Made by a program: the position numbers and the translations under genes. DNA of 64,000 bases from a virus. Shown piece after piece: positions 10,084-35,798 of the stretch (positions within the stretch are counted from its first letter, which is position 1; every line of letters begins with the position of its first letter). The notes under the pieces were generated by a model. That model searched no databases and was not told where the DNA came from. It saw only the letters and a program-made list of their open reading frames with translations. The stretch is taken from positions 124,001 to 188,000 of the IMG/VR virus record IMGVR_UViG_3300023184_000025; one strand, given 5' to 3'.

Positions 10084-10084
10084 T

Positions 10085-10723: not shown

Positions 10724-10730
10724 TCTTTAT

Positions 10731-11312: not shown

Positions 11313-11336
11313 ATTATATTTACCATAATATACGTA

Positions 11337-11344
11337 GATAAATA
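11337..11344 (+). promoter_or_regulatory. Late promoter box GATAAATA placed 5 nt before ATG 11350
   Basis: GATAAATA fits the NATAAATA late consensus. With the usual start 5-6 nt after the box, transcription begins at the A of the ATG. No ribosome site lies between. Confidence 0.55.
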
Positions 11345-11349
11345 TTTCT

Positions 11350-16072: not shown

Positions 16073-16797
16073 ATTGTTTTGTATATTTTGTTTTCTTTAT
16101 TGTTCCAATACTGATGGTCAGTAATTTGTTGTTTTATAATAGAGGTATCTATCTCATCAAGTGTTTGCTTTCTAGGAACATCTAAATCTAGATTGACCTG
16201 GTCTGGATGGAACCAAAATGCATTTACTGCCCTTGTGTCAAATGTAAAAAACTCATAACCATATTGTGACCACAAATCTTTGTACTTTGACAGTGAACAG
16301 CCATAATGAAACTTTCTATTGTATGTAACTTTTTTTATTGGATTTTCAACATAAGGAAAACTAGCCCAGTCGTTACCAAAGTTCTTGTTAATCTCGCAAC
16401 ACACGGTGGCTGGACGAAATCCCGATTGCAATAGGGCTGACGCTACTTCATAATCAAAACTGTCAATATCTAAACTAAAAAAGTCTGGTTGCTGGTACTG
16501 CTCGGGGATATACTGAGTTACGTTGTCTGGAGAAATCATTTTCTGTATTTTAATCAACTGATCAGGCCACCTTTCGGTCACTGATGAATTCCAGTCCCAG
16601 CCGTCTATGCCAACGCCGCAATACCCTTGATGTAGCAAGTCCAAAGTCATATTTTGTGTTCCATCGCCAAAACCAATCTCTACAAAAGTTTTTTTTGGGT
16701 CAGATATTCCAGCTAACATGTATTCAATAATCCCAGTCTCGGCATGTTGACTAAAACCTTGTCGTTCATACGGTAAATGTATCATAATGGAGTCCAT
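16069..16797 (-). CDS. SAM-dependent methyltransferase (FkbM-related)
   Basis: 242 residues. 'KTFVEIGFGDGTQNMTLDLL' (about 35-54) is a clear motif I (E-x-G-x-G-x-G), with 'GVGIDGWDWN', 'PDFFSLDIDSFDYEVASALL' and 'RPATVCCEINKNFG'. The 'SLDIDSFDYEV' segment is like the 'IDVEG.E..VL' of FkbM enzymes. It overlaps the clear FkbM gene upstream by 16 bp, so the pair is coupled; the substrate is probably a sugar hydroxyl. Confidence 0.8.
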   Translation of the reverse strand: MDSIMIHLPYERQGFSQHAETGIIEYMLAGISDPKKTFVEIGFGDGTQNMTLDLLHQGYCGVGIDGWDWNSSVTERWPDQLIKIQKMISPDNVTQYIPEQYQQPDFFSLDIDSFDYEVASALLQSGFRPATVCCEINKNFGNDWASFPYVENPIKKVTYNRKFHYGCSLSKYKDLWSQYGYEFFTFDTRAVNAFWFHPDQVNLDLDVPRKQTLDEIDTSIIKQQITDHQYWNNKENKIYKTI

Positions 16798-17429
16798 ATT
16801 GTATTGCTCTTACTTTTAACTGGTGCGGCTTCATACGGGCCGCATAAATCATTGAGCCATTGCCTGTGTTGATCTTGCTGGCCGTTGTCCTCAATTAACA
16901 ACCAAGGTCTGTTGCGGCGTATAGTGTCACGACTTCCTTCAAGTACTGCATTTTCAAAACCCTCAACATCAATCTTGATCCAGTCCACAGATTGAAAATT
17001 GAATCGATCCAGCGTGGTCAACTCTCCAGTGTGTTGTTCAAACTCTGGGTTGGGCACAAACTCTGCCACTTGTTTGGTATGCCCACACTTGAGAGTTTGT
17101 AATTCAAATATTGCTGTTTGATCTCTATCGCCAAGACCCAAGTTATGCAATTCTACATTGTTATAATTTTCTAGATTTTTTTGCAGGACTTCAAAATTTT
17201 TAAGCACTGGTTCAAAACATACCACATGTTCAAACTGTTCAGCACTTGGTCTGGCAAATATACCAATGTTAGCACCAATATCAATCATTGTACGTTTTTG
17301 TGGAATATTATTATACACATAGTACCGGTAACGTTGTTGGTAATGTACATCTACAACATTTTGTAAACGCTCGCTGAAGAAACCATCAAGTGGTTCAGGA
17401 GAATACCAGAGTGAGTTAATTTTATACAT
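16782..17429 (-). CDS. FkbM family methyltransferase
   Basis: 215 residues. 'RTMIDIGANIGIFARPSAEQF' (about 46-66), 'VVCFEPVLKNFEVLQKNL' and 'VDWIKIDVEGFENAVLEGS' are the three diagnostic FkbM segments (SAM loop, ribose-binding acid, IDVEG). 'RNRPWLLIEDN' follows. FkbM proteins O-methylate sugars or polyketides. It is the first gene of a three-gene minus-strand unit (17429 to 15245). Its start codon is only 18 bp from the start of the divergent gene at 17448. Confidence 0.9.
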   Translation of the reverse strand: MYKINSLWYSPEPLDGFFSERLQNVVDVHYQQRYRYYVYNNIPQKRTMIDIGANIGIFARPSAEQFEHVVCFEPVLKNFEVLQKNLENYNNVELHNLGLGDRDQTAIFELQTLKCGHTKQVAEFVPNPEFEQHTGELTTLDRFNFQSVDWIKIDVEGFENAVLEGSRDTIRRNRPWLLIEDNGQQDQHRQWLNDLCGPYEAAPVKSKSNTIWTPL

Positions 17430-17447
17430 ATATAACTATTTAACAAA

Positions 17448-18275
17448 ATGAAATTTAGTCTATTTAATAACTTTGGTGCGTTAAACTCTGCACCGGTATT
17501 TGCGGCCATAGAACAAGGTCTTAAATCTCTTGGCCATCAGGTAGTTCACAACGAATATGACGCAGATGCCGCTGTAATATGGTCGATGTTATGGACCGGT
17601 CGTATGCAAAGTAATCGAGAAGTTTGGAAAACATATCAAAACAAACCTATAATTGTTGCCGAAGTTGGAATGTTAGATCGAGGAAACACATGGAAAATTG
17701 GACTAAATGGTACCGGAGTATCTTGTTATAATTTCACTGATCTGATAGCATCAAGGGCAATAGATCTTGGATTAACATTGGCACCCTGGAGAACTGCTGG
17801 CGATCACATTGTGATTGCGCTACAACGTCAGGATAGTCAACAATGGTCTGGGCTACCGGATACACAAGCATGGGTTAATGATGTGTGCAATCGTTTAAAA
17901 AAATACACAGATCGCCCAATTGTTATTAGATCTCACCCAAGACAAAAAATAATACCAACAGCTATTTCCCCAAATAAGATTGCCAATTCGTACGATTGTT
18001 TTGATTTTAATCAATCATTAGAAAACGCATGGGCAGTTGTTAACTGGAGCAGTGGTCCTGGACCACAATCAATTATAAATGGTGTACCTGCATTTGTTGG
18101 CACAGATAGTCTGGCATCATTGGTTTCAACATTTAATCTAGCAGAAATAGAAAATCCGGCAATGCCGGATCGTAGTAGTTGGTTGAATATAATAGCACAT
18201 TCTGAATGGACACTAGACGAAATTGCGAGTGGTCATCCTATTCAAAGATTACTGCCTAGGTTGGTATCTCTGTAG
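17448..18275 (+). CDS. GT-B-like capsule glycosyltransferase-type protein (paralogue C)
   Basis: 275 residues. It shares with the two genes at 12779-14547 the segments 'LTLAPWRTAGDHIVIALQRQDSQQW', 'RLKKYTDRPIVIRSHPRQK', 'AWAVVNWSSGPGPQSIINGVPAFVG', 'NLAEIENPAMPDRSSW' and 'HSEWTLDEIASGHP'. It stands alone on the plus strand between two minus-strand units and overlaps the 3' end of gmd by 27 bp, which suggests a copy moved from the paralogue pair. The N-terminus 'FGALNSAPVFAAIEQGLKSLGH' resembles a GT-B acceptor domain. Confidence 0.65.
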   Translation: MKFSLFNNFGALNSAPVFAAIEQGLKSLGHQVVHNEYDADAAVIWSMLWTGRMQSNREVWKTYQNKPIIVAEVGMLDRGNTWKIGLNGTGVSCYNFTDLIASRAIDLGLTLAPWRTAGDHIVIALQRQDSQQWSGLPDTQAWVNDVCNRLKKYTDRPIVIRSHPRQKIIPTAISPNKIANSYDCFDFNQSLENAWAVVNWSSGPGPQSIINGVPAFVGTDSLASLVSTFNLAEIENPAMPDRSSWLNIIAHSEWTLDEIASGHPIQRLLPRLVSL

Positions 18276-19226
18276 ATCTGCATTAACCATATCTTCAATC
18301 ATTTGTTTAAATGTTGTTTTTGGTTTCCAGTCCAATAGACTTCGAGCCCTGGTGCTGTCCCCGCATAGACTATATAATTCAGCAGGTCTTTTAAATCGTG
18401 GATCAGTTAGTACTTTGGATTCCCAGTTGGGAATATTAACATAATTAAACGCAACATCTAAAAGTTCTCGAATAGTATGTTGTTCGCCAGTGGCAATAAC
18501 ATAATCTTTGGCTTCATCTTGCTGTAACATTAGCCACATTGCTTCAACAAAGTCCCCGGCAAATCCCCAATCTCGGCGGCTGTCGATATTACCCAATGTA
18601 ATTGTTTCCTGCAATCCTAATTTAATACGTGCAACAGCATCTGTAACTTTGCGTGTAACAAATTCTTTTCCACGCAATGGACTTTCGTGATTGAATAACA
18701 CTCCTGAGCAAGCATAGAGACTATAACTTTCTCGAAAGTTCACAGTCATCCAGTGACTATACAGTTTACTAACCCCATACGGACTACGAGGAGTAAATGG
18801 GGTAGTTTCATTTTGTGTAGGTGTTGTGGCATTGCCAAACATTTCGCTGGTGCTTGCTTGATAAAAACGACTATTGGGACTATGTGTTTTAATTGCATTA
18901 AGAATATTAAGTGGACCCAATGAGTTGACTTCTGTAGTTAACTTATTCAAGTCCCAGCTAATTCCAACAAAGCTCTGAGCCGCAAGGTTATATATCTCTA
19001 CTGGTTTTAAACTTCTAAGTAGATGATTTATTGAATTTTCATCAGTGATATCACCTGTTACTAGTTCAATATCATTTTCAATTCCAAGCCATTTGATATT
19101 GTCAAGGTTTGGATTGCTATATCTTTTAACTAGTCCGTATACTTGATAATCTTTTTCAAGCAATAACTTTGCTAGGTACGGGCCATCTTGACCAGTCATT
19201 CCAGTGACAAAAGCAGTTTTTTTCAT
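18249..19226 (-). CDS. gmd: GDP-mannose 4,6-dehydratase
   Basis: 325 residues, the normal size of the family. A short-chain dehydrogenase fold with 'FVTGMTGQDGPYLAKLLLE' (NAD(P) loop, residues 6-24), 'YGLVKRYSN', 'YNLAAQSFVGISW', catalytic 'QASTSEMFGN' and 'SPYGVSKLYSHW' (YxxxK), and 'GNIDSRRDWGFAGDFVEAMW', which is specific for Gmd/RmlB-type dehydratases. It converts GDP-D-mannose to GDP-4-keto-6-deoxymannose, the precursor of GDP-fucose, GDP-rhamnose or GDP-perosamine. GAGG lies before the ATG. A reductase or aminotransferase partner is not in the window, so the host may complete the pathway. Confidence 0.93.
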   Translation of the reverse strand: MKKTAFVTGMTGQDGPYLAKLLLEKDYQVYGLVKRYSNPNLDNIKWLGIENDIELVTGDITDENSINHLLRSLKPVEIYNLAAQSFVGISWDLNKLTTEVNSLGPLNILNAIKTHSPNSRFYQASTSEMFGNATTPTQNETTPFTPRSPYGVSKLYSHWMTVNFRESYSLYACSGVLFNHESPLRGKEFVTRKVTDAVARIKLGLQETITLGNIDSRRDWGFAGDFVEAMWLMLQQDEAKDYVIATGEQHTIRELLDVAFNYVNIPNWESKVLTDPRFKRPAELYSLCGDSTRARSLLDWKPKTTFKQMIEDMVNADLQRYQPRQ

Positions 19227-20714: not shown

Positions 20715-21773
20715 TTATTCTCCCTGATCAGATTCTTCAGTACTTACCGTTTCTGTTTGATTGACAAAGTCTTTCATCACAATATCCAGGCAATCGTCGT
20801 CGTTGCGTTCCCAACCCTTACGGAACTTTTTAATAATTTCTCCAGCACTGGTAGTGAATACTAGGCTGTTGCCTTCTTTCTTGAGTAGGCCTTTCTTCTC
20901 AATCAAATCAGTGAGACCCGAATACGGACTCATTCCAGATTCGTAAGGAATTTTAACCTGCACACCTTCGAAAGGTTTAGCATAGCGTGTTTTCATTACC
21001 TTGCATGCGGCACGAATACCCATGACGTCGGTAATTTTGTTGCCATCTTCATCTTCTTTAAGTTTGAGTTTCTTCATTGCAACAACAATTGAGCTTGCAT
21101 AAACAAAACCTTGTCCACCGCTGATCTTGTCATCTGGATCAAACATGTCTTGACTGGCATATGTGTGATTGGTACATACCAAGCCTACATTGTAACTTCC
21201 AAACATGTTGACACAATTACGAACAAGTGATGTAAGTGCTTTGGGTTTACGTCCCATGTCACCTTTCATATCGCCAGCATCAAACTGATTTACATCAGTT
21301 GGTGTAAGCAACATGCCCAATGAATCAATGACAAATAACACTTTGGGACGTTCGCCATCTGGTAATGATTTGTAATCACTCATGAATGTGGAAATAGTTT
21401 TTGCCACATCATCAATCATGGCCATTGCTAGTTTGAGTAGTTTGCTTTCGCTAGTGTCAACACCAAGATCATGCAACCATTTTTCATCTAGTGCATTTTC
21501 AGAGTCAATCAGCACTACAAAGATACCTTGTTCTTGTGCGTTCTTGATAATGTTGCCGGAACAGATGTAGCTTTTGCCAGCGCCAGACTCTCCGGCAAAC
21601 ACCGTAACCTTGCCCAATGGCACACCTCGGTTAAAGTCTCCGCTGATCAAATAGTTCAGTGCATAGTTGCCTGTGCTGATCCAATCTGTGGGATCGTTAA
21701 AGCCAATGCTTAGGCCTTCGATGCTTTTTGTAATTTCCTTACGGAACTTGCTTACGTCAAACGGTTTTCCCAT
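20715..21773 (-). CDS. uvsX: UvsX RecA-like recombinase
   Basis: 352 residues (T4 UvsX 391). Walker A 'FAGESGAGKSYICSG' (about 59-73), 'IFVVLIDSENALDEKWLHDLGV' motif, Walker B 'PKVLFVIDSLGML' (about 143-155), 'GLVCTNHTYA' and the L2 region 'DKISGGQGFVYASSIVV'. It forms filaments on single-stranded DNA for strand exchange with UvsY and gp32. A perfect sigma-70 promoter (21801-21829) drives it as an early gene. The C-terminus is acidic and short. Confidence 0.95.
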   Translation of the reverse strand: MGKPFDVSKFRKEITKSIEGLSIGFNDPTDWISTGNYALNYLISGDFNRGVPLGKVTVFAGESGAGKSYICSGNIIKNAQEQGIFVVLIDSENALDEKWLHDLGVDTSESKLLKLAMAMIDDVAKTISTFMSDYKSLPDGERPKVLFVIDSLGMLLTPTDVNQFDAGDMKGDMGRKPKALTSLVRNCVNMFGSYNVGLVCTNHTYASQDMFDPDDKISGGQGFVYASSIVVAMKKLKLKEDEDGNKITDVMGIRAACKVMKTRYAKPFEGVQVKIPYESGMSPYSGLTDLIEKKGLLKKEGNSLVFTTSAGEIIKKFRKGWERNDDDCLDIVMKDFVNQTETVSTEESDQGE

Positions 21774-24330: not shown

Positions 24331-25320
24331 TTACTTTTGTTGACGTGAGCGAATCATTGCCAAAATGTCTTGTGCATTTTGTCCGCTGGGTTTGGCAGAT
24401 TGCACAGGAGCAGTTGGTGCTGGTGTGTCGTCAGACTCGAAAGGACTATTGTTGCTTACAACTGGCTTAGACACAGGCTTGTTGGTTGGAGCAGGTGTAT
24501 CCTCATCAACTTCTGTAGAACTACCTGCAGGTGCTTGTACGCCTGCTGGACGGAAGTATTGACCCCAACGTTCAAGGTCGTATGGCTTGCCATCTACTGA
24601 TGCTTCAAACATTTCCTTCATTACTTTGAGTTCAACTTCACCGGGCTTCTTGGGTAAGAAGCTGGCAAGATCAAACAATCCGTGTGTTTCGAGAGAAGTT
24701 TGTTCTGCTTCTGTAAGTGCAGATTCTTTACGTGCCCACTTAGACGTACTGTAGTCAGCGTAACCGCCTTTGCTGGTTTTACTAATACGGAAGTCCAGTC
24801 CACGCATTAAATCTGTTGGGATTTCTTCCAGTTCTGGATCCATCAATGCACCTTTAATAATATTAAAGATTTGAGGACCAATGATAAATCTACGGATAGG
24901 ATTTTCTGGTGTCTTGTCGTCACCAATTGGGTTCTCACGAACAAAGCCTTGGAAAATGTAACTGCGTTTTTTCCAGTACTTACGACCCATGTCTTCAAGA
25001 CTCTTGTCCTTGAACCATGTGCGTACTTCTGCTAAGATTGGGCAAGCGTCGCCCCACATCTCAACACAGGGTACTTGTACCATAACCTGTTTAGAATCCA
25101 TTTCTCCTTTGATGCCATTGAATGGCAGTCGAATCATGGCTCGTTCGGCCCAGAAGAATGTGTTTTTAGAGTTTGCGTCTGGTAAGAATCGAATAGTAGC
25201 ATTTGCTCCTTCGTCCATGTTCCAGTGTGGGTAGATTGCGTTGTCGCCGCCTGATGATTGACCGCCTTTGTTTGACTCTGCGGCTGAGAGACGTGCGCGG
25301 ATTTCTGATAATGATGCCAT
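24331..25320 (-). CDS. 32: Single-stranded DNA-binding protein gp32
   Basis: 329 residues (T4 gp32 301). The N-terminal basic arm 'SEIRARLSAAESNKGG' (LAST-like) is followed by the OB-fold core with 'ATIRFLPDANSKNTFFWAERAMIRLPF', 'VPCVEMWGDACPILAEVRTWF' (zinc-region cysteines C85/C93-type spacing), 'KYWKKRSYIFQGFV' and 'RFIIGPQIFNII', and a flexible acidic-proline tail. It coats single-stranded DNA and recruits replication and recombination proteins. Its leader contains a strong hairpin at 25380-25413. Confidence 0.93.
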   Translation of the reverse strand: MASLSEIRARLSAAESNKGGQSSGGDNAIYPHWNMDEGANATIRFLPDANSKNTFFWAERAMIRLPFNGIKGEMDSKQVMVQVPCVEMWGDACPILAEVRTWFKDKSLEDMGRKYWKKRSYIFQGFVRENPIGDDKTPENPIRRFIIGPQIFNIIKGALMDPELEEIPTDLMRGLDFRISKTSKGGYADYSTSKWARKESALTEAEQTSLETHGLFDLASFLPKKPGEVELKVMKEMFEASVDGKPYDLERWGQYFRPAGVQAPAGSSTEVDEDTPAPTNKPVSKPVVSNNSPFESDDTPAPTAPVQSAKPSGQNAQDILAMIRSRQQK

Positions 25321-25461: not shown

Positions 25462-27924
25462 TTATGATTTCATCATGCCAGACAGCTGACGCAATCGGCT
25501 TAGAACATCTTGTTCCACATCATCAAACTTTTGTAGTTTACCAGAGTGTCCGTATTGGCCTTGCAGTGATGTTGATTCTTCAAATGTTTTCTTAAATCCT
25601 TGAACAAAGTCACTTGGATTTGGTGTACCGGCGCCAACCATTTTACCAAGAGCGCCCATATTGGTGTCATCGGCACCTTCGCTCATTACTTGATCAATAA
25701 GTTTTTTGCCACCGTATAGTACAGCCAATAACAAACCCAATGGTATTGCATACTTGGCAGCGGCAATTGCCAGCTCACCAATAGTTTTACTATCAATTGC
25801 GTTGCCAACAATACTGGTTAATGCTCCTGCGGCATCCTTTGCATCTGTGTAAACTTTGTTCATTCCTTGTGGGATTGACTTAGCAATTTCATCTGCTATG
25901 GAATATACACCAGCACCAAGACCAACCTTGCCTGCATTTTGAGCTGTTGATTGTGCGGCTGATTTACCAACTTCTACAGCACCTTTACCAATTCCTGTGG
26001 CTGCCTTTCCGGCCACTTCGGCGCCAGCTTTGCCTGTTTTGGTTGCCATGCGTCCCAATGCAGGTCCAACACGAGATAATATTGGCAATAACATTCTTGC
26101 TCCAGCAGCCAATGCAGGAATAATAGGAGCAATCTCATTAAGCTGTGCTTCGGATAGTTTATTTTCTTTGCTTAGTTCTCTACCGGCCATTTGTCCAGCA
26201 GTTCCGCCAGCGGCCCCACCAATCACACCGCCAATTGCGGCACCAACTGGTCCACCTGCTAATGCACCCAATGCTGATCCAGCAACTGTTCCGCCAACAC
26301 CACCGGCTGTTCCGCCAGCAAGTTCGCCTTTCCAACCTTCGTTCAATCCTGACAACTGGCGCATACGTTCAACGCTTTCACTGCTCATGTTGCTGGACTT
26401 GGTCATCATTACGCCATCGGTGTCAAGGTCCTCGCCAAGATCTGATTCATGCAAACTGTCGTAGGCCAACTCATGTACAAGGTCGCCGTGCTCGTCGTTT
26501 AGTTGGTCCAATTCTTGATCACTTAGATCTGTTCCGTCAGTAAATGAAGCACGGCCAATATATGCATCACTGAAGTCTGGATAGTCTCTAGAATCAACGT
26601 TTTCAATTTCTAAGCTACGCATGTCAACTTCTTTACCATTGAGCATGATACCTTGTCTGGCACCTTCTGTCATGCCTTGCTCACCAGAGTCAGGCCCTAC
26701 AGTAGAATTAATATCGATACCAAGCTCACCTAGACGATTGATAACTTCAGGATCTTCCCAGCAGTCAGCATTGGGATCGCGGTCAGCTAGGTCATTCAAC
26801 CGATCAAACAAGATGTCATCGCCCACTAGGTCATACAATTGTTCTGTTGCATTGGTTGCATCAGCACCCACAATCAATGGCTTACTCATTAATTCTTTAA
26901 GTTTTGCGTCTGATTCAGGCGTGTCAGGTAATGCCCAGGTGCCCTCCATGACATGGTCGGCCCATGATTCAAATTGATCTACTTCTTTCATTTTATCTTC
27001 CTTATTGGCTAATTTTGCCAGAATTGGTAACGCTTCTTCTATGCGCTGGTCTATTGATTGTTCAACAAACAGGTCACGTATGGATTCTACTGCATGATCT
27101 TTTTCGCTAATTTCAGCAGGGTCAAACGTGTCACGTGTTTCCAAATATCCACGACGGCTGATCATGTGTTTGGCTTTGTTCTTGAGTTCAGTATAATGTC
27201 TTACTGCCGACTCGACCATACCAATGGCATCATTGTTTAGGTTTTTGTGTCGTGCGGCACGAATAAATCTACCTAAAGTGTTTAGTTCTACTACCATCTC
27301 GTTGATGTGCTGTCCAAGTGCATCGTAAGGATGGCCGCCTTCGGAACAATGTCTAGCCATGACCTTGCCACACATGAGATTTTTGTGTGGTAACTTATAT
27401 CGACTGCCGTCTGCTGTTTCCACAAACAAACTTTCAATGGCCCGGAATCGTGCTTCGCCTTCTGCAATGTCACGATTGTGCTTGATCATTAATCGTGCTT
27501 CCATGGGCTGGTCACTGTAGCTTATGTTCTTTTTACCATAGTAGCCTTCAAACAAACCTTCTTTGATGGCTGCCATACCTTGCATGGTGTACTTTAATCT
27601 ACTTAGATTGTTCAACTCAAAACTTAATAAATTTCTAGTTGCAAAATTTTTAAGCTGTTCTAGGAACTTGTACCAATCTGATTTATCATCACCTTCCATG
27701 GTACGGCCAACATTGTCCCCAAAGAACACCTGTAGTGTATTGTTAGGGCCTAGCAAAACAACCACAGTTCCGTAGTTTTTATTTTCTGTTTTCCAATCAA
27801 AGCTAAAGATCTCTGTTTGATTAGGGTCAGAAACAGGCTTGCCTGAATTATCCAGTAATTCAGGATCAAGGTCGCGTGTGACTAGTAAGTCGTTGAGTTC
27901 GGTTGCTGGCGTGTTCTGATTCAT
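25462..27924 (-). CDS. Large virion protein with glycine-zipper segment
   Basis: 820 residues. Residues 1-500 are mixed alpha/beta and charged, with no recognised enzyme motif. At about 515-530 'VERMRQLSGLNEGWKGELAGG' matches the phage prohead-protease site form L-x-E|G, and the next 45 residues are a glycine zipper ('VGGTVAGSALGALAGGPVG') that could insert in a membrane. A second hydrophobic stretch follows near 715-740 ('YAIPLGLLLAVLYGGKKL'). The C-terminus repeats the motif 'RLRQLSGMMK'. It lies between gene 32 and large terminase, in the late block. An internal head protein or membrane-active ejection protein is a reasonable guess. Confidence 0.65.
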   Translation of the reverse strand: MNQNTPATELNDLLVTRDLDPELLDNSGKPVSDPNQTEIFSFDWKTENKNYGTVVVLLGPNNTLQVFFGDNVGRTMEGDDKSDWYKFLEQLKNFATRNLLSFELNNLSRLKYTMQGMAAIKEGLFEGYYGKKNISYSDQPMEARLMIKHNRDIAEGEARFRAIESLFVETADGSRYKLPHKNLMCGKVMARHCSEGGHPYDALGQHINEMVVELNTLGRFIRAARHKNLNNDAIGMVESAVRHYTELKNKAKHMISRRGYLETRDTFDPAEISEKDHAVESIRDLFVEQSIDQRIEEALPILAKLANKEDKMKEVDQFESWADHVMEGTWALPDTPESDAKLKELMSKPLIVGADATNATEQLYDLVGDDILFDRLNDLADRDPNADCWEDPEVINRLGELGIDINSTVGPDSGEQGMTEGARQGIMLNGKEVDMRSLEIENVDSRDYPDFSDAYIGRASFTDGTDLSDQELDQLNDEHGDLVHELAYDSLHESDLGEDLDTDGVMMTKSSNMSSESVERMRQLSGLNEGWKGELAGGTAGGVGGTVAGSALGALAGGPVGAAIGGVIGGAAGGTAGQMAGRELSKENKLSEAQLNEIAPIIPALAAGARMLLPILSRVGPALGRMATKTGKAGAEVAGKAATGIGKGAVEVGKSAAQSTAQNAGKVGLGAGVYSIADEIAKSIPQGMNKVYTDAKDAAGALTSIVGNAIDSKTIGELAIAAAKYAIPLGLLLAVLYGGKKLIDQVMSEGADDTNMGALGKMVGAGTPNPSDFVQGFKKTFEESTSLQGQYGHSGKLQKFDDVEQDVLSRLRQLSGMMKS

Positions 27925-27930
27925 ATCTTA

Positions 27931-27938
27931 TATTTATT
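27931..27938 (-). promoter_or_regulatory. Late promoter box AATAAATA 6 nt before ATG 27924
   Basis: AATAAATA fits NATAAATA and lies 6 nt from the start codon, so a transcript from it would be leaderless or nearly so. It overlaps the last codons of the large terminase gene. Confidence 0.45.
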
Positions 27939-29505
27939 ACATCATTGTCATAACAAACGGCAGTGGTTCAATTACCACATCCTGGTGATCGCGCATTTGT
28001 TCGTCAAGATTCTGGTGATAACTCTGCAATAACTGCATCATTCTAACTACCAGTAAAGTTGACATTACCAGATCGTCTGTTTCTCCCATTTTTGCCGCAT
28101 AGCTTGCGCCTGACGCAACAAAGTTTTTAAGTTCACTGATCAGGCTTTTGCTGTTGATTTTCATACGCTTTGACTCAACCAGGTGTTTTAACTTGGCGCA
28201 AGCAGATAGCTTTGACTTGTTGGTTGTGTTAAATCCTTTACGGAATCTACGACTAACACTAACTCCGGGTTCGCTGAGGAAATAGCCTTGTATGTTTTCT
28301 TCTCCGTATTCAGCAATAGAAATTAGTGCGGCTTCCCCAATGGTGTTATTTTCCACTGAAAAATAGATACTTTTTGGGTCACGCACAGTTTCATTGATGT
28401 GTCGTATAATGTCGGCTAGTATTCTAACTTGGCCAGGAATGTCAGTTTTATTATGTCTCCATTCTCCAACTTGTAGTGTGGAGTTTGCATCAAATATCTG
28501 AATTGCTGCCGGGTCGCCGCCGGTGCCCAGACTAGGGTCAAGTGCAACAACATAAATTTTTTCAGGATCTATTCGACAATACCATCGTACTTCACCAGTT
28601 TTATAAGCTGGGTCTACACCTTCTAGATCAATCAATGTTGTTGGAGCAATCAGCGTTTCATCATTGATGATGAATTCGCAATCCATTTCACGTCGGAAAC
28701 GATCAGTGCCCAGGGCCGCACGTTGTTGTGTTGCCCAAGATTCATCACGGTCCGGATGCTCATTCCAAAAGCTACGATAGGCTTTGAAGCCATTGACACC
28801 AATTTCAGTAGGATTACCAAATTCATCTTCACAACGATTGGCGCCTTTCCATAACAGAGCAAACTGGTCTTCGTCACTGTTGGGAGTTGATGTAATAATT
28901 GCTTTACCACCAGTGGCTAGTGTGGGACTGATAGAAGTCCAAAATTCTGTGGCAATTGTAGGTCGGACAAATGCAAACTCGTCTGCGTACAGTAATGATA
29001 TACTCATACCACGACCGGTGTTTTCTGTGGTTGTTGCTGACACAATACGCGAGCCGTTGTCAAATTCTAAACTACCTTTGTTGTAACTTGTGACGCCAGC
29101 ACGAATATGATCAGGTACCGATTCATAGGCGTATCGTACCCGTTGCATGATCTCTTGTGCTCCTGTGTATTTGTGTGCGGCAACTAGTATAGTACTGTCA
29201 GGAATAAACATAGCATACCAAAGTAGATATCCGGCAGCTGATGTTGACTTACCTGTTTGTCGAGGCATCATTGAAATTGAATATCTATAATTATGGTAGG
29301 TATGAATTAGTCTACGTTGATATTCAAACGGATGATACAACATTCGACCACGAGTTGGGTGCTGTATATAGAAAAAATGGTCCATAAAATAAAGTGGACC
29401 ACTAGCAGGATCGGCACAGGCAATAAACTCATCAAGCTGTTGCTCGGTATAGTTAATACGTAAATGGGGTGGCTTAATTAAAACGCCTTCTAAAGACTTA
29501 CTCAT
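27937..29505 (-). CDS. 17: Terminase large subunit gp17
   Basis: 522 residues. ATPase domain: Walker A-type 'ISMMPRQTGKSTSAAGYLLW' (about 76-95), Walker B 'ISLLYADEFAFV' and coupling motif 'AIITSTPNSDED'. Nuclease domain: 'IYVVALDPSLGTGGDPAAIQ' (first acid), 'YFSVENNTIGEAAL' and 'KMGETDDLVMSTLLV' (last acids), as in RNase H-like terminase nucleases. It translocates DNA into the prohead and cuts at headful. It is slightly shorter than T4 gp17 (610). Confidence 0.95.
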   Translation of the reverse strand: MSKSLEGVLIKPPHLRINYTEQQLDEFIACADPASGPLYFMDHFFYIQHPTRGRMLYHPFEYQRRLIHTYHNYRYSISMMPRQTGKSTSAAGYLLWYAMFIPDSTILVAAHKYTGAQEIMQRVRYAYESVPDHIRAGVTSYNKGSLEFDNGSRIVSATTTENTGRGMSISLLYADEFAFVRPTIATEFWTSISPTLATGGKAIITSTPNSDEDQFALLWKGANRCEDEFGNPTEIGVNGFKAYRSFWNEHPDRDESWATQQRAALGTDRFRREMDCEFIINDETLIAPTTLIDLEGVDPAYKTGEVRWYCRIDPEKIYVVALDPSLGTGGDPAAIQIFDANSTLQVGEWRHNKTDIPGQVRILADIIRHINETVRDPKSIYFSVENNTIGEAALISIAEYGEENIQGYFLSEPGVSVSRRFRKGFNTTNKSKLSACAKLKHLVESKRMKINSKSLISELKNFVASGASYAAKMGETDDLVMSTLLVVRMMQLLQSYHQNLDEQMRDHQDVVIEPLPFVMTMM

Positions 29506-29547: not shown

Positions 29548-30360
29548 TTAATCAGCTTTGCCACACTTGGCACGTTTAGCGTTGGTCAATGTGCCAAAAT
29601 CTACAGCCCATTCGGTGTCAGGTGTAATTTCTTTTGCATTAGCAGGAAATTTAAACTGTACACCTGCTTGACTTTGAATAGTAGAAATCATTGCACGGAA
29701 TTGAGTTAGATCGTTACCCAGGTTAACATAAGGTTTTGTATGTGGGAATGCCCAGCCAGCTATTTCATGAGTGACATTGTTGATTACAATTTTATAGTAA
29801 GCATGTGGCACAATAACACCGTTACCAATTGTTTCATCGCCGGCGCCATATAACGCACCCACATAGATTGTGTATGCTTGATTGCGTTGTACTACCCATC
29901 CACGTACTGATGTTTCTAACAGTTTCCAAATTCCACGATTAAGTGACCCGTGTTGTGGATACATGTTGGTCATTAGGAATGATTCGTACTCAACTTGCTC
30001 GCTCCAGGATAAATCACCGTCGGGCGCGGCATGGCCTTTGTCGTAGCCTGTGCCAGCATAGTCATCTGGCTTGGCACCATTTGGTACTGAACGATCAGCA
30101 ACAAATGCATTTGTTCTTGGCCAGCATCCTAATGCATTAGGTGGTGTTAGGGTATAGGCAACATAAACAGGAATCTTGACTGGTGCATCATACGCAACGA
30201 AGTACGCTTCGCGACATATAGGTTGTGCTGGTCGCTTTGTTTTTGCAAAGCCGTATGGGCTGTGTATTTGACATGCTTGTGGGGGTAATGGAGCACGTTG
30301 TTCCCATGCTTGAGCTAGACTTGATGCCGCTAGCAATACGGCAAATAACAGTTTTTTCAT
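29548..30360 (-). CDS. DNA/RNA non-specific endonuclease (NUC1 type) with signal peptide
   Basis: 270 residues. Residues 1-18 'MKKLLFAVLLAASSLAQA' form a signal peptide with an AQA|W cleavage site. The body carries the beta-beta-alpha-metal site 'YDKGHAAPDGDLSW' (about 105-118, equivalent to the DRGH motif of Serratia nuclease) and 'FLMTNMYPQHGSLNRGIW', whose asparagines bind magnesium. Cysteines at 32, 50, 79 and near the C-terminus suggest disulphides. It would act in the periplasm, outside the cell, or after export. It lies between packaged-protein-like genes and large terminase, an unusual place for a secreted nuclease; bacterial origin is likely. Confidence 0.85.
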   Translation of the reverse strand: MKKLLFAVLLAASSLAQAWEQRAPLPPQACQIHSPYGFAKTKRPAQPICREAYFVAYDAPVKIPVYVAYTLTPPNALGCWPRTNAFVADRSVPNGAKPDDYAGTGYDKGHAAPDGDLSWSEQVEYESFLMTNMYPQHGSLNRGIWKLLETSVRGWVVQRNQAYTIYVGALYGAGDETIGNGVIVPHAYYKIVINNVTHEIAGWAFPHTKPYVNLGNDLTQFRAMISTIQSQAGVQFKFPANAKEITPDTEWAVDFGTLTNAKRAKCGKAD

Positions 30361-30370
30361 CTGGTATTTA

Positions 30371-30395
30371 GTTACCCAGATTTAGCGTGGGTAAC
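30371..30395 (-). repeat. Inverted repeat GTTACCC...GGGTAAC over the stop of the preceding gene
   Basis: 7-bp arms enclose 11 nt including the stop codon at 30382-30384. The nuclease ATG at 30360 follows 10 nt later, next to an ACTAAATA box (4 nt before the ATG). The stem may limit read-through or translation of the nuclease. Confidence 0.4.
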
Positions 30396-30771
30396 CTTTG
30401 AATGCGTTAATTGGACTTTTGTTATCAATAAATGGAGGTTCTTTGCTAGGACCAGTTGACACCATCTTTTTGCCGCCAGGAGTGTTGGTCATTTTAAGAG
30501 CAGAGTCAATTATCTGCGCAACGCTATTGTTCATTCCGACTACAATGCCGTGCTCACCAAATGTTGTTTCATCATGCCACTCGGGCATGTTAGGATTAAC
30601 CTCATCCTTAACAGCGTCACTTCTTGCACGAGCAATTGCTACACCAAATCTATAATTTTTATACGGGTCTGCGGCACTGAGGCCGGGAATCACATAGGTG
30701 TAGCGCATAGGGTCAGCTTGCTCAGCCGGCAACTGGGCGGATTGTTCAGTGATAAACTCGCGGGCTCTCAT
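30382..30771 (-). CDS. Putative head-packaged internal protein with capsid-targeting N-terminus (paralogue 1)
   Basis: 129 residues. The N-terminus MRAREFITE|Q matches the T4 capsid-targeting sequence (MKTYQEFIAE|A of internal proteins IPI-IPIII), including the glutamate before the expected gp21-protease cut. The C-terminus 'KSPINAFKGYPR' is shared with the upstream paralogue ('VSPVTGFKGYPR'). ATG overlaps the upstream stop (ATGA). The middle has no known motif. Packaging and injection into the host are inferred from the N-terminal signal. Confidence 0.6.
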   Translation of the reverse strand: MRAREFITEQSAQLPAEQADPMRYTYVIPGLSAADPYKNYRFGVAIARARSDAVKDEVNPNMPEWHDETTFGEHGIVVGMNNSVAQIIDSALKMTNTPGGKKMVSTGPSKEPPFIDNKSPINAFKGYPR

Positions 30772-31142
30772 CTTGGGTAGCCTTTGAATCCAGTAACAGG
30801 ACTGACTTTGTGTGTGTCGTTGGGTTCTTTACTAGAATGATCACGAATTAACTCATGTGCATCGGTTCCTGAAACTGTGTTAAATGCCTGTCTCATCATA
30901 TTATGTTCTGTTTCGGTATACGGATATGCCATATTATTCTTTCCAGCAAAACTTTCATCTTCCATGTCCAATGCTTTAGTACTTTTACCATCGGCCATAG
31001 CAGTTGCCTTCATTACCTGATTCAAGTGATATATTCTATCTGTACCATCATCCTTGAATTTATATGCGCCGCGAGAAACAGAGGCATGATCTTTATGCAT
31101 CTTGCCTTTTTTAGATTCAACAATAAATTCGTGTGCTCTCAT
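30768..31142 (-). CDS. Putative head-packaged internal protein with capsid-targeting N-terminus (paralogue 2)
   Basis: 124 residues from ATG 31142, which overlaps the upstream stop as TAATG; an open extension of four codons is less likely because it would displace the N-terminal motif. MRAHEFIVE|S fits the capsid-targeting pattern. The mature part is very charged ('KKGKMHKDHAS', 'DRIYHLNQVMKATAMADGKS') with a shared C-terminal 'FKGYPR'. It is a tandem duplicate of the gene downstream, with a diverged centre. Confidence 0.6.
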   Translation of the reverse strand: MRAHEFIVESKKGKMHKDHASVSRGAYKFKDDGTDRIYHLNQVMKATAMADGKSTKALDMEDESFAGKNNMAYPYTETEHNMMRQAFNTVSGTDAHELIRDHSSKEPNDTHKVSPVTGFKGYPR

Positions 31143-31420
31143 TATGGTTGCCAAACGCCAACTTGCCCTGAGCTTGCAGTACCAACTTCTTGTATAGTAG
31201 CGTTAGATCCAGTGATTGTGAGTTGATTGCCAACTCCTACCCAAACAGTCACACGATTGTTTGCGGGAATCACAACAGGATTTGAATATAAATTACCAGT
31301 AGACGGACCGTATACTAAATTTACATTGTAGGTAACAGTATTTGTACCTGTGGATATTCTGGCTTTATCTGTGTACCATGTCTGGCTACTAGCAGATGTA
31401 TAAACGTTGGCTTGACTCAT
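31142..31420 (-). CDS. Small beta-rich virion-type protein
   Basis: 92 residues, rich in T, S, V and N ('NTVTYNVNLVYGPSTGNLY', 'NNRVTVWVGVGNQLTITG'), with the alternating pattern of a beta-sandwich. This resembles small capsid decoration or fibre-attachment proteins. AAGGAAAA precedes the ATG. It is inserted in the cassette of capsid-targeted proteins but lacks the N-terminal signal. Function unknown. Confidence 0.6.
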   Translation of the reverse strand: MSQANVYTSASSQTWYTDKARISTGTNTVTYNVNLVYGPSTGNLYSNPVVIPANNRVTVWVGVGNQLTITGSNATIQEVGTASSGQVGVWQP

Positions 31421-31436
31421 GTTCTTATTTTCCTTT

Positions 31437-32498
31437 TTACCATGCTCGGCAAGACCAATAGCGAGCCGATGTCTTTGGACCAGGGTTCTCGCAATGATGT
31501 CTTGCTCTAAAACTCTTACGACGTGCAGGATTTGATTTCTTGATCTTCATTGTCTTTTGGCCAGCACGTTTTGCACTTGTTCCGCCATGTCCAAAGTTTA
31601 CTTTTTTAATGTTGCCAGTGCTGGGATCTTTAACATAGACTTTAAACTTTTTGACATCACCACGCATGGGTTTGCTCAGCGGCACATTACGTCCGTGATA
31701 CTCAGCTTCGGACATTTCAACTTCATCAGACTCGTCTTGATTACTTTCAATATAGTCAGCGGCTGTGTCAACATAGTCAGCGGCTTTGGTAATTTTTGAT
31801 TGCACCCACTCTGGCATGTTTTCGTTGTCGTCCAGCATGCCTGTTAAACGTCGGGCGGCACGAACAATAGTTTCAAGATCATCCTTGGCCATGTCACCTT
31901 CTTGGTCATATTCTCCGCTGTCTACAACATCAATGTTAGATTCTTTTACTTGATCTGAAGAATTGTCTAGTGTACGAATAACATCTCGTACCCAACCACT
32001 AACATCGCTGGATCCAATTTCTTCTACATCCCCTACCCACTCGGCAACATCTTTTACCGCATCCATTACTGCCTGCGGACCATGACGGCTCAGTAATCCT
32101 GGGTGTTGCATTAAAATACGATGTAGGATTGCACGTTCGGCTGGGGCTGGTTCATCGTCTAAACTTTCGTGTACACCTGGCATTGGGTTAGTAACATCTG
32201 TTTCCAATTCTTTTGCCGTTAACACACCAGCTGATTGATCTTCGCCAATGCTGTATCCCATGCCAGAACTGTTTCCTACTGCACCATAACGACGAATTTC
32301 TTCAGAAGTAAATCCGTGAGATTCTAATAGTTCAATTGCACGAGCATCGGCATGAAGGATAATATCGTTTCCAACCACGTCAACAATGTGTGTTTCTACC
32401 AGGCATTGTTCTCCGTAGTCAAAGGCAAATGTATCGCCAACAGCAGGAGTGGCGGACCACTCTTCGGCTTCAGTTAGATAATCTTTTAATGTTTTCAT
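31437..32498 (-). CDS. Putative internal/core head protein with capsid-targeting N-terminus
   Basis: 353 residues. MKTLKDYLTE|A is the closest match in this window to the T4 capsid-targeting sequence. The middle has 'NENMPEWVQSKITKAADYVDTAADYIES' (about 220-247), a segment I know from many T4-like marine virion proteins. The C-terminal 70 residues are very basic ('RAGQKTMKIKKSNPARRKSFRARHH...') and end in a cysteine-tryptophan motif 'PKTSARYWSCRAW', suggesting nucleic-acid binding. It is coupled to the 728-residue gene (4-bp overlap). Confidence 0.65.
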   Translation of the reverse strand: MKTLKDYLTEAEEWSATPAVGDTFAFDYGEQCLVETHIVDVVGNDIILHADARAIELLESHGFTSEEIRRYGAVGNSSGMGYSIGEDQSAGVLTAKELETDVTNPMPGVHESLDDEPAPAERAILHRILMQHPGLLSRHGPQAVMDAVKDVAEWVGDVEEIGSSDVSGWVRDVIRTLDNSSDQVKESNIDVVDSGEYDQEGDMAKDDLETIVRAARRLTGMLDDNENMPEWVQSKITKAADYVDTAADYIESNQDESDEVEMSEAEYHGRNVPLSKPMRGDVKKFKVYVKDPSTGNIKKVNFGHGGTSAKRAGQKTMKIKKSNPARRKSFRARHHCENPGPKTSARYWSCRAW

Positions 32499-34681
32499 TT
32501 TCTAGAATAACGTTGATATAATTCCCACAGCCGGGCTTCCTGGCTTTCAGCCATTGGTCCAACTGATCCACGAGCTGGATCACGATTAAGAACCGGAGTA
32601 GTGGTTTGTCCTGTTGTCTTTGGTCCGTTTAAACCACCGCTGAGTGTTTTAGTCATTGTGTCAATGCCAGCATACTCTGTGTTGTCTGCGCTGTTAGCCA
32701 ACTCTTCGTCCACTTGTTCGCAACCACATTCTCTAGAACCGCAGGATGGGCAAACTTCCGAGTAACCTTCACTGCTACCGCCCATACCGGCCAACTTTAG
32801 AATCTGTGCTAGTTTTCCTGCATCTTCATCTGTGGCAGACACGTTAAGACTATTATGTCCTTCTGAATCAACAGTGGCATTGATATTCATGCTTTCGTTT
32901 AACACTTCAGTCATTCTAGCGTTGAAACTTTCAGCTAGTTTTGCTTCGTATACACCTTTACCGTACTGCATTCCGCTTTTGCTTGGAGTGCTGTCAGACG
33001 TTTCTTCAACTTCTTTTTTCTTGGCTTTCTTTTCAGGCAAGCCTTTGTGCTTGGTGGCAGCAAAGTCTTCAGCATCTTTCTTTTTCATAGTTTTGGCCAC
33101 TTTGCCAACTTCTTTGCTGGCTGGCTTCCCGCCTTTTTGTGCGGCATGAACCATGCCCATGAACTTTTGTTGCTTCTTGCTTGTTGCTTTTTCGTCAAGT
33201 TCTTTTTCATTGACCTGCGCATTACCTGGCTGATTGTTTTTAATCATGGTCATTGCGGCCCATAGTGAGCTTTCAAGACGACTAGCAAAGCCTGGTGGCA
33301 TTTGTCCTCCGCCCTGAGCTTTTTTGGCAATTGCACGTAGTTCAGCAAGTTCATTATAAATTTCTTGAGCCTGTCCTGAGTCAGAGCCTTCTTTGGTCAT
33401 TAACTTTGAAGTACCGCTTGGTCCTTTGGCACCAATACTCTTGCCTGTGCCTTTTGGACGACCTTTGCCGCGCTTGTCTCCTGCGGCTGGTGTATCATCT
33501 GTGCCCACGCTGTGGCCAGTATTGGGATCAACACGGCGTGTTACTTTTCGACCAGTTGCTGTGTGTTCAATATCATGCAATGCACCACGCTCGATAGAAC
33601 CAACTTTGGGTTTCTCTGGACGTGGCTTCTTCCATGATGTAAATGGATTGTTGTCATCTTCGTCAACTTCTCCTGGTGCACCTTTGATACCAGCGGCTTT
33701 GAGTGCGGCTGCTCTGTCTGGGTAGCCTTTAGTTCCGGGCTTGATGTCTTTGGATGCTTTTCCAATTGCGGCTTTTACCTTTGGCGAGGCATTGCTGGCA
33801 TTAACATGCTTCATTGTTGTTTTGGCCTGGTGACTTTTTGCACCCATTTTACCAATGGCACTTTTCATTGCTTCAGCAGCAACATCGCCCAACATTTCAT
33901 CAACTTCTTGTTTTGCGCCAGCAATTTTGTCAGCAAAAGTAATTTTGTCTTTGGGTTCGGCTAGTGCGGCAAATGATTTTTGCTTGGCAGTCATTGGAGA
34001 ACTACCTTCACCAAATTGCACATTGTCCCCTGCTGAGAATTGTGTGTTGGCCAAACGCTTTGGTAATCGACCTTTAGCAATGATAAAATCTAATTCCTGG
34101 TCTGTTGGGCCTGCTTGTTCTAGATCGTGAGCCAGGTCCTGCATTGCATCGTTGTCCCATATATCGTCGCCATACAATGCGGCAATTGAATCTAGTACTT
34201 TGTCAAAGTTAACTGCGCCTACAGCTTCACCAACGGGCTTTTTGCCTGTCTGTGGCAAGCCTGCTTTGCGTTGTAGGTCACGAATCATGTCTTCGTCGCT
34301 GCCATGGCCCAATGTGTCGAGGGCCTTCTGACCAACTTTCTTAACACCACTGCCAATTTTTTTAACTACATCGCCCATGTCTTCATCAAATGCATCGCCT
34401 ACTTTATCTCCGGCAATTGCGCCACCTACTGCTCCGAGTGGTCCCAGAGCCAGTGCACCTAGTCCAGCACCGATACCAGTTCCAATTATGCCTTCATCAA
34501 CTTCTTTAGCTTTACCGCCTTTGGCATCTTTGCCCAGTCGTCCAGCAATGACATCGCCACGTGTGACCTTGTCATAGGGCTTGGCATTGTTGGCCAAGTT
34601 GCCGTCGCCTTTGCCTTCTTTTAGTGTTTGTTTATCAGCCAGGTCACTCAGCTTTTTGTTTAAGTCGTAAAAAAATGTCAT
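32495..34681 (-). CDS. Large virion protein with glycine zipper, AT-hook-like and zinc-ribbon-like segments
   Basis: 728 residues. 'VDE|GIIGTGIGAGLGALALG' (about 61-80) puts a possible prohead-protease site directly before a glycine-zipper hydrophobic segment (63-92). 'KRGKGRPKGTGKS' (about 405-420) resembles an AT hook. Near 640 'EVCPSCGSRECGCEQ' is a CxxC...CxC zinc-ribbon-like knot. Further L/I-x-E sites are frequent. It ends 'RLWELYQRYSRK'. Lysine- and alanine-rich linkers suggest a scaffold-like or DNA-associated internal protein. The organisation parallels the 820-residue protein at 25462-27924. Confidence 0.65.
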   Translation of the reverse strand: MTFFYDLNKKLSDLADKQTLKEGKGDGNLANNAKPYDKVTRGDVIAGRLGKDAKGGKAKEVDEGIIGTGIGAGLGALALGPLGAVGGAIAGDKVGDAFDEDMGDVVKKIGSGVKKVGQKALDTLGHGSDEDMIRDLQRKAGLPQTGKKPVGEAVGAVNFDKVLDSIAALYGDDIWDNDAMQDLAHDLEQAGPTDQELDFIIAKGRLPKRLANTQFSAGDNVQFGEGSSPMTAKQKSFAALAEPKDKITFADKIAGAKQEVDEMLGDVAAEAMKSAIGKMGAKSHQAKTTMKHVNASNASPKVKAAIGKASKDIKPGTKGYPDRAAALKAAGIKGAPGEVDEDDNNPFTSWKKPRPEKPKVGSIERGALHDIEHTATGRKVTRRVDPNTGHSVGTDDTPAAGDKRGKGRPKGTGKSIGAKGPSGTSKLMTKEGSDSGQAQEIYNELAELRAIAKKAQGGGQMPPGFASRLESSLWAAMTMIKNNQPGNAQVNEKELDEKATSKKQQKFMGMVHAAQKGGKPASKEVGKVAKTMKKKDAEDFAATKHKGLPEKKAKKKEVEETSDSTPSKSGMQYGKGVYEAKLAESFNARMTEVLNESMNINATVDSEGHNSLNVSATDEDAGKLAQILKLAGMGGSSEGYSEVCPSCGSRECGCEQVDEELANSADNTEYAGIDTMTKTLSGGLNGPKTTGQTTTPVLNRDPARGSVGPMAESQEARLWELYQRYSRK

Positions 34682-34691
34682 GTTGTTTTCC

Positions 34692-35291
34692 TTATTTCAT
34701 AAAGCCGGTTGCAGGCTTGGGTGGTCTTTTAATTGTTGTCAATGGGCTTTTGACTCCCATTGGCAGTTGATTTGTTGTCTGTGCAGGTGCAGTTTTGCCA
34801 CCAGCCACAGTCCATTTAGCATCAGCGGCAGAATTTTTAACAACTTCGTGCTCACTGGGTTCAGCGGCATAGTCAGCTTTTAATTTCTTTTGTTCAGCAT
34901 CTGTGGGTGGCAAATCTGTGGTTAGCAGATCCTTTTGATTTTCAATGCCCAATAACTCTTTGTCCATGCCTTCGGCCCAGTCACGTTGATCCATCACAAT
35001 GCTGTTTGCATCAAGACCCAGCAGTTCAGCAATCTGAACCACCTGTGGTGGTGTAGCCGGATATTTAAAACTAACATCAATGATGTTTACAGACTGATTA
35101 GCATGGTCTGGGAACCCAACTGGTTTAGATAAAATTGGGGTTTTCTTTGGCTCAGAGATTTTGATTGGGTCGAATTTTTTTAACTTTTCGTTAAAAGCTT
35201 TCATAAAACCACCTGGCAAATCACCAATGATTTTAATACGGTAATCAAAGGTTTGAGCACTTTCAATCAAGTATTGTGCAAATGTTTTCAT
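34692..35291 (-). CDS. Putative internal head protein with capsid-targeting N-terminus
   Basis: 199 residues. MKTFAQYLIE|S fits the capsid-targeting pattern. It is followed by 'TFDYRIKIIGDLPGGFMKAFNEKLKKFDPIKI' and 'NIIDVSFKYPATPPQVVQIAELL', an alpha/beta domain recurrent in T4-like marine virion proteins, and then a disordered proline/lysine tail. A GATAAATA lies at 35310-35317, in the end of the small terminase gene. Its role is unknown, but its placement just after small terminase fits a head assembly function. Confidence 0.65.
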   Translation of the reverse strand: MKTFAQYLIESAQTFDYRIKIIGDLPGGFMKAFNEKLKKFDPIKISEPKKTPILSKPVGFPDHANQSVNIIDVSFKYPATPPQVVQIAELLGLDANSIVMDQRDWAEGMDKELLGIENQKDLLTTDLPPTDAEQKKLKADYAAEPSEHEVVKNSAADAKWTVAGGKTAPAQTTNQLPMGVKSPLTTIKRPPKPATGFMK

Positions 35292-35312: not shown

Positions 35313-35798
35313 TTATCGATCAGACGTCTTTGTGTTGGTTCGATCAACTAGTCTACTGAGTAATTCATTACGGTCAATAACAGCACCTTGACCAGTTGGC
35401 ATGTTGTTATTGTTAACATCATCTTTATCTAGTTTTGCTTTCTTTAACTGTAGATCAATCATCTTTAGCTTTTTATTCATCTTGGCAGTTTTTGCTGTGA
35501 TAGCATGGCCTAGCATCTGGCTGGCAACACTGAAAATTTCGCTAGCAAAACGGCTGTCTACTTGCATGCCCAGGTCCATAAGATTGTCAAATTCTTTAGT
35601 GGCCTTGGCAGCCAGTTCGTCCATTTCCTGATCACTGGCTTCTAGCCCTCGAACCGCAGGTAATGCTGCCTCAATCTTATCTAAGGCATCTAGGGTTTCT
35701 GGTAGTACTGGGAAAGTGGGCTGTGACTCAGGTGTCACAACAGTATCTTCAGAGTCTGAAGATGGAAGATCAAATAAAGATTCAAGTTTACGAGTCAT
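35313..35798 (-). CDS. 16: Terminase small subunit (gp16-like)
   Basis: 161 residues (T4 gp16 164). A disordered acidic N-terminus precedes two long helices ('ALDKIEAALPAV...ASDQEMDELAAKATKEFDNLMDLGMQ' and 'ASEIFSVASQMLGHAITAKTAKMNKKLKMIDLQLKKAKLD'), the coiled-coil arrangement of gp16 ring proteins, followed by a short C-terminal arm. It recognises DNA and stimulates the large terminase. Its gene follows the gp4-like gene. The ATG lies in an inverted repeat at 35797-35814. Confidence 0.7.
   Translation of the reverse strand: MTRKLESLFDLPSSDSEDTVVTPESQPTFPVLPETLDALDKIEAALPAVRGLEASDQEMDELAAKATKEFDNLMDLGMQVDSRFASEIFSVASQMLGHAITAKTAKMNKKLKMIDLQLKKAKLDKDDVNNNNMPTGQGAVIDRNELLSRLVDRTNTKTSDR

Follow-up and report, generated by a model that had tools for sequence, protein, structure and literature searches.

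A cassette of genes between the two terminase genes of an uncultivated jumbo phage very probably encodes precursors of internal head proteins that carry capsid-targeting propeptides of 9–10 residues, in two interchangeable tag types. The cassette (29548–35291) was analysed within a window of 64,000 nucleotides (positions 124001–188000 of the 345,154-b virus record IMGVR_UViG_3300023184_000025); positions below are those of the window unless given as record positions. Two of its proteins begin with a tag of the type known from phage T4 (MKxFxxYLxE) and two with a shorter tag, here called the MRA type (MRAxEF[I/L/V]xE). It is also likely, though somewhat less so, that the MRA type forms a second class of capsid-targeting propeptide, not described before, which uncultivated T4-type jumbo phages use interchangeably with that of T4, and that scanning for it reads out virion-packaged injected effectors (ADP-ribosyltransferases, acetyltransferases, T7-kinase-like proteins, peptidoglycan hydrolases and many unknown proteins).

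By analogy with T4, the tag peptide would bind the scaffold core of the assembling prohead, where the S77 protease would cleave behind the final Glu of the tag ([F/Y]-[I/L/V]-x-E|); the mature proteins so released would remain inside the head alongside the DNA and exit with it when the phage infects. On other genes of this genome and of related phages, these tags would deliver a changing set of enzymes. The terminase large subunit (TerL) shares 53% identity with its counterpart in Pseudomonas phage PA5oct and 41–51% with those of Phosso, CBB, GAP32 and their relatives, so the phage is regarded as a T4-type jumbo myovirus.

Tagged genes of the cassette

All cassette genes and both terminase genes lie on the minus strand. 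The N-termini MRAREFITE, MRAHEFIVE, MKTLKDYLTE and MKTFAQYLIE start at 30771, 31142, 32498 and 35291, between TerL (27937–29505; PF03237/PF17289) and a terminase small subunit-like protein (TerS-like; 35313–35798; PHROG terminase small subunit E 2.6e-4; syntenic fEgEco12 gene annotated TerS), as an earlier reading of the sequence alone (the sequence-only reading) had reported. From the TerS side, a199 (34692–35291; 199 aa; phrog_14802) carries the T4-type tag MKTFAQYLIE|S (tag codons 35262–35291); it is homologous to a protein annotated as virion structural in PA5oct and in 121Q-like jumbo phages. The gene c (31437–32498; 353 aa; phrog_7595) carries the T4-type tag MKTLKDYLTE|A and a C-terminal Cys/Trp domain. 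A (30768–31142; 124 aa; MRAHEFIVE|S) and its full-length homologue B (30382–30771; 129 aa; MRAREFITE|Q) carry the MRA tag; the longest open reading frame (ORF) of A begins at a TTG at 31154, and the conserved start is the ATG at 31142. Four proteins of the interval are thus tagged; a nuclease gene at 29548 (nuc), a 92-aa ORF with conserved neighbour status (d; 31142–31420) and zip (32495–34681), a 728-aa glycine-zipper protein in the position of PA5oct virion protein EST35_0203, carry no N-terminal tag.

Searched in the DNA as M-[K/R]-x(3-4)-[F/Y]-[hydrophobic]-x-E, the tag pattern matched the window exactly four times, at the starts of a199, c, A and B; 100 dinucleotide shuffles of the window gave a mean of 0.52 matches and at most 3. 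The genome-wide census combined pattern searches with 80 kb of stretches outside the window. The whole record held 10 matches, all on the minus (coding) strand, against one for the reversed pattern, and six of the 10 opened ORFs 124 aa or longer, namely the four cassette genes and two at the record start. The latter, both on the minus strand, encode a GNAT-type acetyltransferase (MRAQEFITE...; record position 706; PF00583 over cut-off; truncated by the end of the record) and a 222-aa protein (MRAQDFIVE...; record position 1375).

Conservation of the tags

Relatives in IMG/VR numbered 22 for A, 138 for B and 44 for a199, with the recurrent order TerS-a199-zip-(c)-(d)-A-B-variable cargo genes-TerL. 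The tag was present on 60 of 61 homologues of a199, 66 of 73 of A, 64 of 65 of B and 29 of 38 of c, and on none of 464 homologues from eleven neighbouring families, comprising TerS (0/59), zip (0/64), d (0/49), TerL (0/52), nuc (0/15), an 820-aa protein, a 329-aa protein and four tail/neck-region families.

In the alignments of A and B, M1, R2, A3, E5, F6 and E9 of MRAxEF[ILV]xE were invariant and positions 4 and 8 free. The invariant R, A, E, F and E were each encoded by several synonymous codons; because codons at these residues vary freely, selection acts on the protein. Among 47 homologues of a199, K2, F4, Y7, L8 and E10 were at least 90% conserved and positions 3, 5, 6 and 9 variable, the conserved positions being 1, 2, 4, 7, 8, 10 and 11. 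The Glu is kept in Atu_ph07 (MKTLQDYLTE) and Vibrio 2.275 (MKDLNTILTE). The Atu_ph07 gene (AUZ94910) is annotated 29 codons too late (9804–9891 of stretch L165; MF403008.1, 85148 to 85061), and an upstream in-frame ATG gives the tagged MKTLQDYLTESKKCYTYHVKF.

Two tag types and the T4 signal

Genetic mapping of the T4 internal protein IPIII signal assigned targeting to residues 4 and 7 and processing to residues 8 and 10; Asp at position 10 allowed targeting and blocked cleavage (PMC9026906). All four tags had been called T4-type capsid-targeting sequences (CTS), which holds, by sequence, for the MKT pair. At the targeting positions (aromatic or hydrophobic residues at 4 and 7), a199 has F4 and Y7, at least 90% conserved, and c has L4 and Y7; at the processing positions (hydrophobic residue 8, Glu 10), L8 and E10 occur in the window and in at least 90% of homologues. 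The MRA pair is one residue shorter and has no aromatic at residue 4, and shares with T4 the hydrophobic-x-Glu cleavage site (F6, [ILV]7 and E9, the last invariant in both alignments). Judged from these residues, the MRA type is a distinct variant that would work like a CTS, not a T4 signal with substitutions. No paper describing an MRA-type signal was found in a literature search conducted mostly outside subscription journals.

The same protein core was found under either tag in a GNAT family (L360 and L258, 37% identity over 116 aa), a DUF6321 family (L443 and L246, 68% over 87), the pair L415 and L209 (73% over 74) and, weakly, DUF6267. This occurrence of the same cores under both tags is the best evidence that the two types do the same job. 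Separately, in the L415 (6604 on), L209 and L211 family a hydrophobic-x-E stands directly before the conserved core DLRKWF (SIQE|DLRKWF, FITE|DLRKWF, QLEE|DLRKWF) even in members whose N-terminal tag is at some distance upstream, a sign that this family may have a second protease site.

Spread of the tags and their cargo

The MRA tag was found in at least 119 IMG/VR stretches; a scrambled control, in which E and F changed places, matched 8. A search of 257 Gb of bacterial and archaeal genomes returned 50 matches, mostly mid-gene or in tiny ORFs. Nineteen jumbo records held 55 MRA matches against none for the reversed pattern, and all encode an S77 protease. Tagged starts usually lay within a few codons after an in-frame stop, like true gene starts.

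Grouped by BLAST, 148 MRA-tagged ORFs fell into about 30 groups without detectable similarity to one another. Domains over cut-off were an ADP-ribosyltransferase exoenzyme (PF03496; L252, where three tagged genes stand in succession), GNAT (L258, L267), GH19 (L274, L177), LysM with M23 (L279), LysM with phage lysozyme (L243), DUF6267 and DUF6934. The tagged protein of L201 matched the PHROG of the T7-type protein kinase, an inhibitor of host transcription (E 8e-10). The T4-type pattern MKTFxxYLxE gave at least 120 matches, the largest group being homologues of a199 (52 of 125 among the matches listed); other carriers were glycine-zipper proteins, DnaJ, a Zeta-toxin-like P-loop protein, phage lysozyme and, in one case, Acb1, which counters the cyclic oligonucleotide-based antiphage signalling system (CBASS) (PF23474 E 3e-23). 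An untagged relative of this Acb1 begins just past the tag region; its contig is not established as that of a T4-type phage. The tag phenomenon is broader than the sequence-only reading saw, which missed the difference between MRAxEF and the T4 signal, the wide spread of the former, and the lack of a tag on the secreted nuclease at 29548.

In the GH19 lysin of L177 (2992–3609) the MRA tag is followed at once by a signal resembling those of twin-arginine translocation (Tat), MRAVEFIAEIDRRGFLGALGAGAMAAAG (TAT_signal E 0.0096, below cut-off), and a protein of L218 (3861–4493) starts similarly with an MRA tag and a Tat-like signal. Such a lysin could be packaged in the head and exported after injection.

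Injected proteins are known for very few phages and normally need virion proteomics. A specific, strictly placed tag shared by unrelated proteins opens a sequence search for probably injected proteins, and would nominate enzymes that uncultured jumbo phages may deliver from the head for host takeover.

Prohead protease and virion proteins

The proposed cleavage calls for a prohead protease in the rest of the genome, and an S77 (gp21-type) protease (PF03420 E 6.5e-25; record 195719–196147) is encoded there, in a head operon outside the window (record 193.2–199.2 kb) with a portal protein (PF07230), an acidic protein, a scaffold-like protein and a Gp23 capsid protein (PF07068). An S77 prohead protease was present in 23 of 23 related records examined. 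In the phage's own major capsid protein, a tag-like NTRKYLKE|NASAG stands directly before the Gp23 domain.

That head-packaged proteins are encoded here is supported by PA5oct, whose syntenic counterparts of a199 (EST35_0202), of zip by position (EST35_0203) and of the gene after TerL (EST35_0206) are annotated in its record as virion proteins by electrospray ionization tandem mass spectrometry (ESI-MS/MS), as is EST35_0205. PA5oct TerL and EST35_0201, in the TerS position, bear no ESI-MS/MS virion annotation. In E. coli jumbo phages, the relatives of a199 carry annotations as structural proteins.

EST35_0206 is the homologue of an untagged 820-aa glycine-zipper protein (25462–27924, minus strand). 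For this protein and zip, L/V-x-E|G sites next to membrane-type segments had been noted, and a joint action with the tagged proteins during ejection had been suggested. Taken as possible protease sites, they are present in both, in numbers weakly above chance: two in zip against 0.83 expected in shuffles (p = 0.20) and five in the 820-aa protein against 1.35 (p = 0.013). An E-G before the zipper recurs in some glycine-zipper homologues.

Role of the conserved tagged proteins

Homology between A and B spans both proteins from end to end (hhalign E 1e-29). Both are small (about 115–120 aa when mature) and near neutral, and a very large set of jumbo phages retains the two genes side by side. The FKGYPR end that they had been noted to share stands at both C-termini as part of this homology. 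It was rejected as a signal in its own right, since A and B are homologous throughout and, of three matches to the pattern in the genome, the one outside their C-termini is not on the coding strand of A and B. No homologue of either was found in cultured phages by tblastn. Foldseek searches with their models gave no PDB match and, in BFVD, a single uncharacterised phage protein, and profile searches of the PDB gave weak matches only.

The identity of the A and B cores is similar to that of neighbouring structural genes (TerS, tail-completion genes). Since they are as conserved as these neighbours, A and B are read as core internal proteins and not as arms-race inhibitors; a199, A and B are probably conserved, abundant core internal head proteins, and host-directed functions fit the variable tagged enzymes better.

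Opinion is evenly balanced on a related proposal, that A, B and a199 belong to the structural core or the scaffold, as T4 gp67/gp68 or IPIII do, and are kept in or processed out of the head without being injected effectors. Their near-universal conservation as a syntenic set, the similarity in identity to TerS and tail-completion genes, the homology of A and B along their length and the structural annotation of a199 relatives all argue for it. On the other side, B identity follows TerS identity only loosely (r = 0.14), which suggests exchange or paralogue turnover, and the same tags stand on enzymes with plausible host-cell targets. The proposal touches the conserved members only and is compatible with the targeting mechanism.

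A and B had also been suggested as host-defence countermeasures, dedicated inhibitors as T4 IPI is of GmrSD. They are indeed small, tagged and paralogous, and another tagged protein, on a viral contig, matches the anti-defence family Acb1. This role is nevertheless improbable: an arms-race inhibitor should be less conserved and less widespread than this pair, which differs in its conservation from the highly variable T-even internal proteins (PMC3012670) and has no similarity to a known anti-defence family or solved structure.

Weighing the targeting interpretation

Several observations count against the interpretation of the tags as capsid-targeting propeptides. The MRA group departs from the T4 residue-4 determinant and the 10-residue length, having nine residues, Ala at 3 and a variable residue 4. 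The a199 homologues of PA5oct (MKSFRDYYDA) and Phosso (MKNFYEYLSS) have no Glu, and that of 121Q-like fEgEco12 (MNRLQQILTD) has Asp in its place, the same change as the T4 Asp-10 that targets and blocks cleavage. Because the Glu is lost in these three phages, a199 cleavage is not essential for presence in the virion, and its N-terminus may be partly structural. A and B have no known fold, their AlphaFold2 models (49–51 sequences) reaching predicted local distance difference test values (pLDDT) of 71–77 and predicted template modelling scores (pTM) of 0.38–0.47, and the BLAST grouping of tagged cores may miss remote homology. Cleavage and packaging in this phage, core binding and injection are read across from T4.

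It is improbable that the tags do not serve the head at all and are amphipathic N-terminal helices that recruit proteins to the tail or a replication site or affect protein stability. The AlphaFold2 model of A does place a short helix at residues 3–9, and some carriers are peptidoglycan hydrolases, possible tail proteins. Against this, the conserved positions match the T4 targeting and cleavage signal, every genome examined encodes a prohead protease, the PA5oct relatives are annotated as virion proteins, and the cassette lies between the terminase genes. Descent of the shared N-termini from one ancestral gene start by duplication or recombination, with no selection as a signal, would suit the paralogues A and B and is very unlikely, since about 30 dissimilar cores are tagged, codons at the invariant positions vary freely, MRA positions 4 and 8 vary while 1–3, 5, 6 and 9 do not, and the same core takes either tag. 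On balance the sequence-only interpretation is partly supported, and the observation beneath it is confirmed.

Genome context

The gene nuc (29548–30360, minus strand) encodes a DNA/RNA non-specific endonuclease (PF01223 E 4.2e-37, 128 bits against a cut-off of 23) with a signal-peptide-like N-terminus. The TerL-proximal slot in relatives (e.g., L066 6384–6821) often holds a nuclease with such an N-terminus, Endonuclease_NS at 18 loci and an SNase-like protein at 43 loci (its BLAST cluster). A secreted nuclease beside the terminase may act in superinfection exclusion or host DNA breakdown.

Synteny reaches beyond the cassette, since a protein at 24331–25320, past TerL and the 820-aa gene, is kept in PA5oct (54%) and Phosso (47%), and a RecA-like recombinase at 20715–21773 is 66% identical to that of Phosso. 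A block at 8576–19226 was judged by its ORFs to contain nucleotide-sugar, glycosyltransferase-like and cytidylyltransferase-like genes. The major capsid protein frame is broken by an in-frame TAA outside the window (record 193560–193562; L162 5560–5562; ...TTEGTF*APTNTKFVG...), after which the Gp23 frame resumes in phase. Since TAA is the commonest stop in the window, where it closes 39 of 62 long ORFs, recoding is less likely here than an assembly error or a true disruption.

Comparison with known systems

The PA5oct virion proteins EST35_0202, 0203, 0205 and 0206 stand in the same order around TerL, 0202 being homologous to a199 and 0206 to the 820-aa protein; PA5oct differs in the missing tag Glu of EST35_0202 and, like the other cultured phages searched, gave no homologue of A or B. 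The MRA-tagged ADP-ribosyltransferase of L252 (PF03496) recalls T4 Alt, a head-packaged ADP-ribosyltransferase; the likeness is one of activity and presumed packaging, and injection of the L252 protein is likewise presumed. In the Dar system of phage P1, anti-restriction proteins are carried in the head, and a short N-terminal signal, that of DarB, suffices for packaging of a reporter (PMC9024508); phage and proteins are different there, and the likeness drawn is one of general kind. Polyvalent proteins (Iyer et al. 2017, cited in PMC7824862) are injected phage proteins that share ADP-ribosyltransferase, GNAT and kinase domains with the cargo described here, but they are large, multidomain and recognised by domain content, whereas here a 9–10-residue N-terminal tag is found on mostly small, separate proteins.

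The closest parallel is the CTS of T4 IPI, IPII and IPIII, cut by gp21: about 10 N-terminal residues with aromatic or hydrophobic residues at 4 and 7, a hydrophobic residue at 8 and Glu at 10 (PMC9026906, PMC3012670). Both systems have an S77 protease and place unrelated cores behind one tag, a principle stated for T-even phages as 'diverse proteins, one targeting sequence' (PMC3012670). The MRA type differs in its nine residues, its invariant R2-A3 and E5-F6 and the lack of a residue-4 determinant. No core was homologous to T4 internal proteins in Pfam or PHROG (a199, c, A and B gave no internal-protein match to IPI, IPII or IPIII), and the tags here serve far more cargo families than in T4. 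The tags suggest that the T4 packaging trick is a delivery system in general use, with two signal dialects or more.

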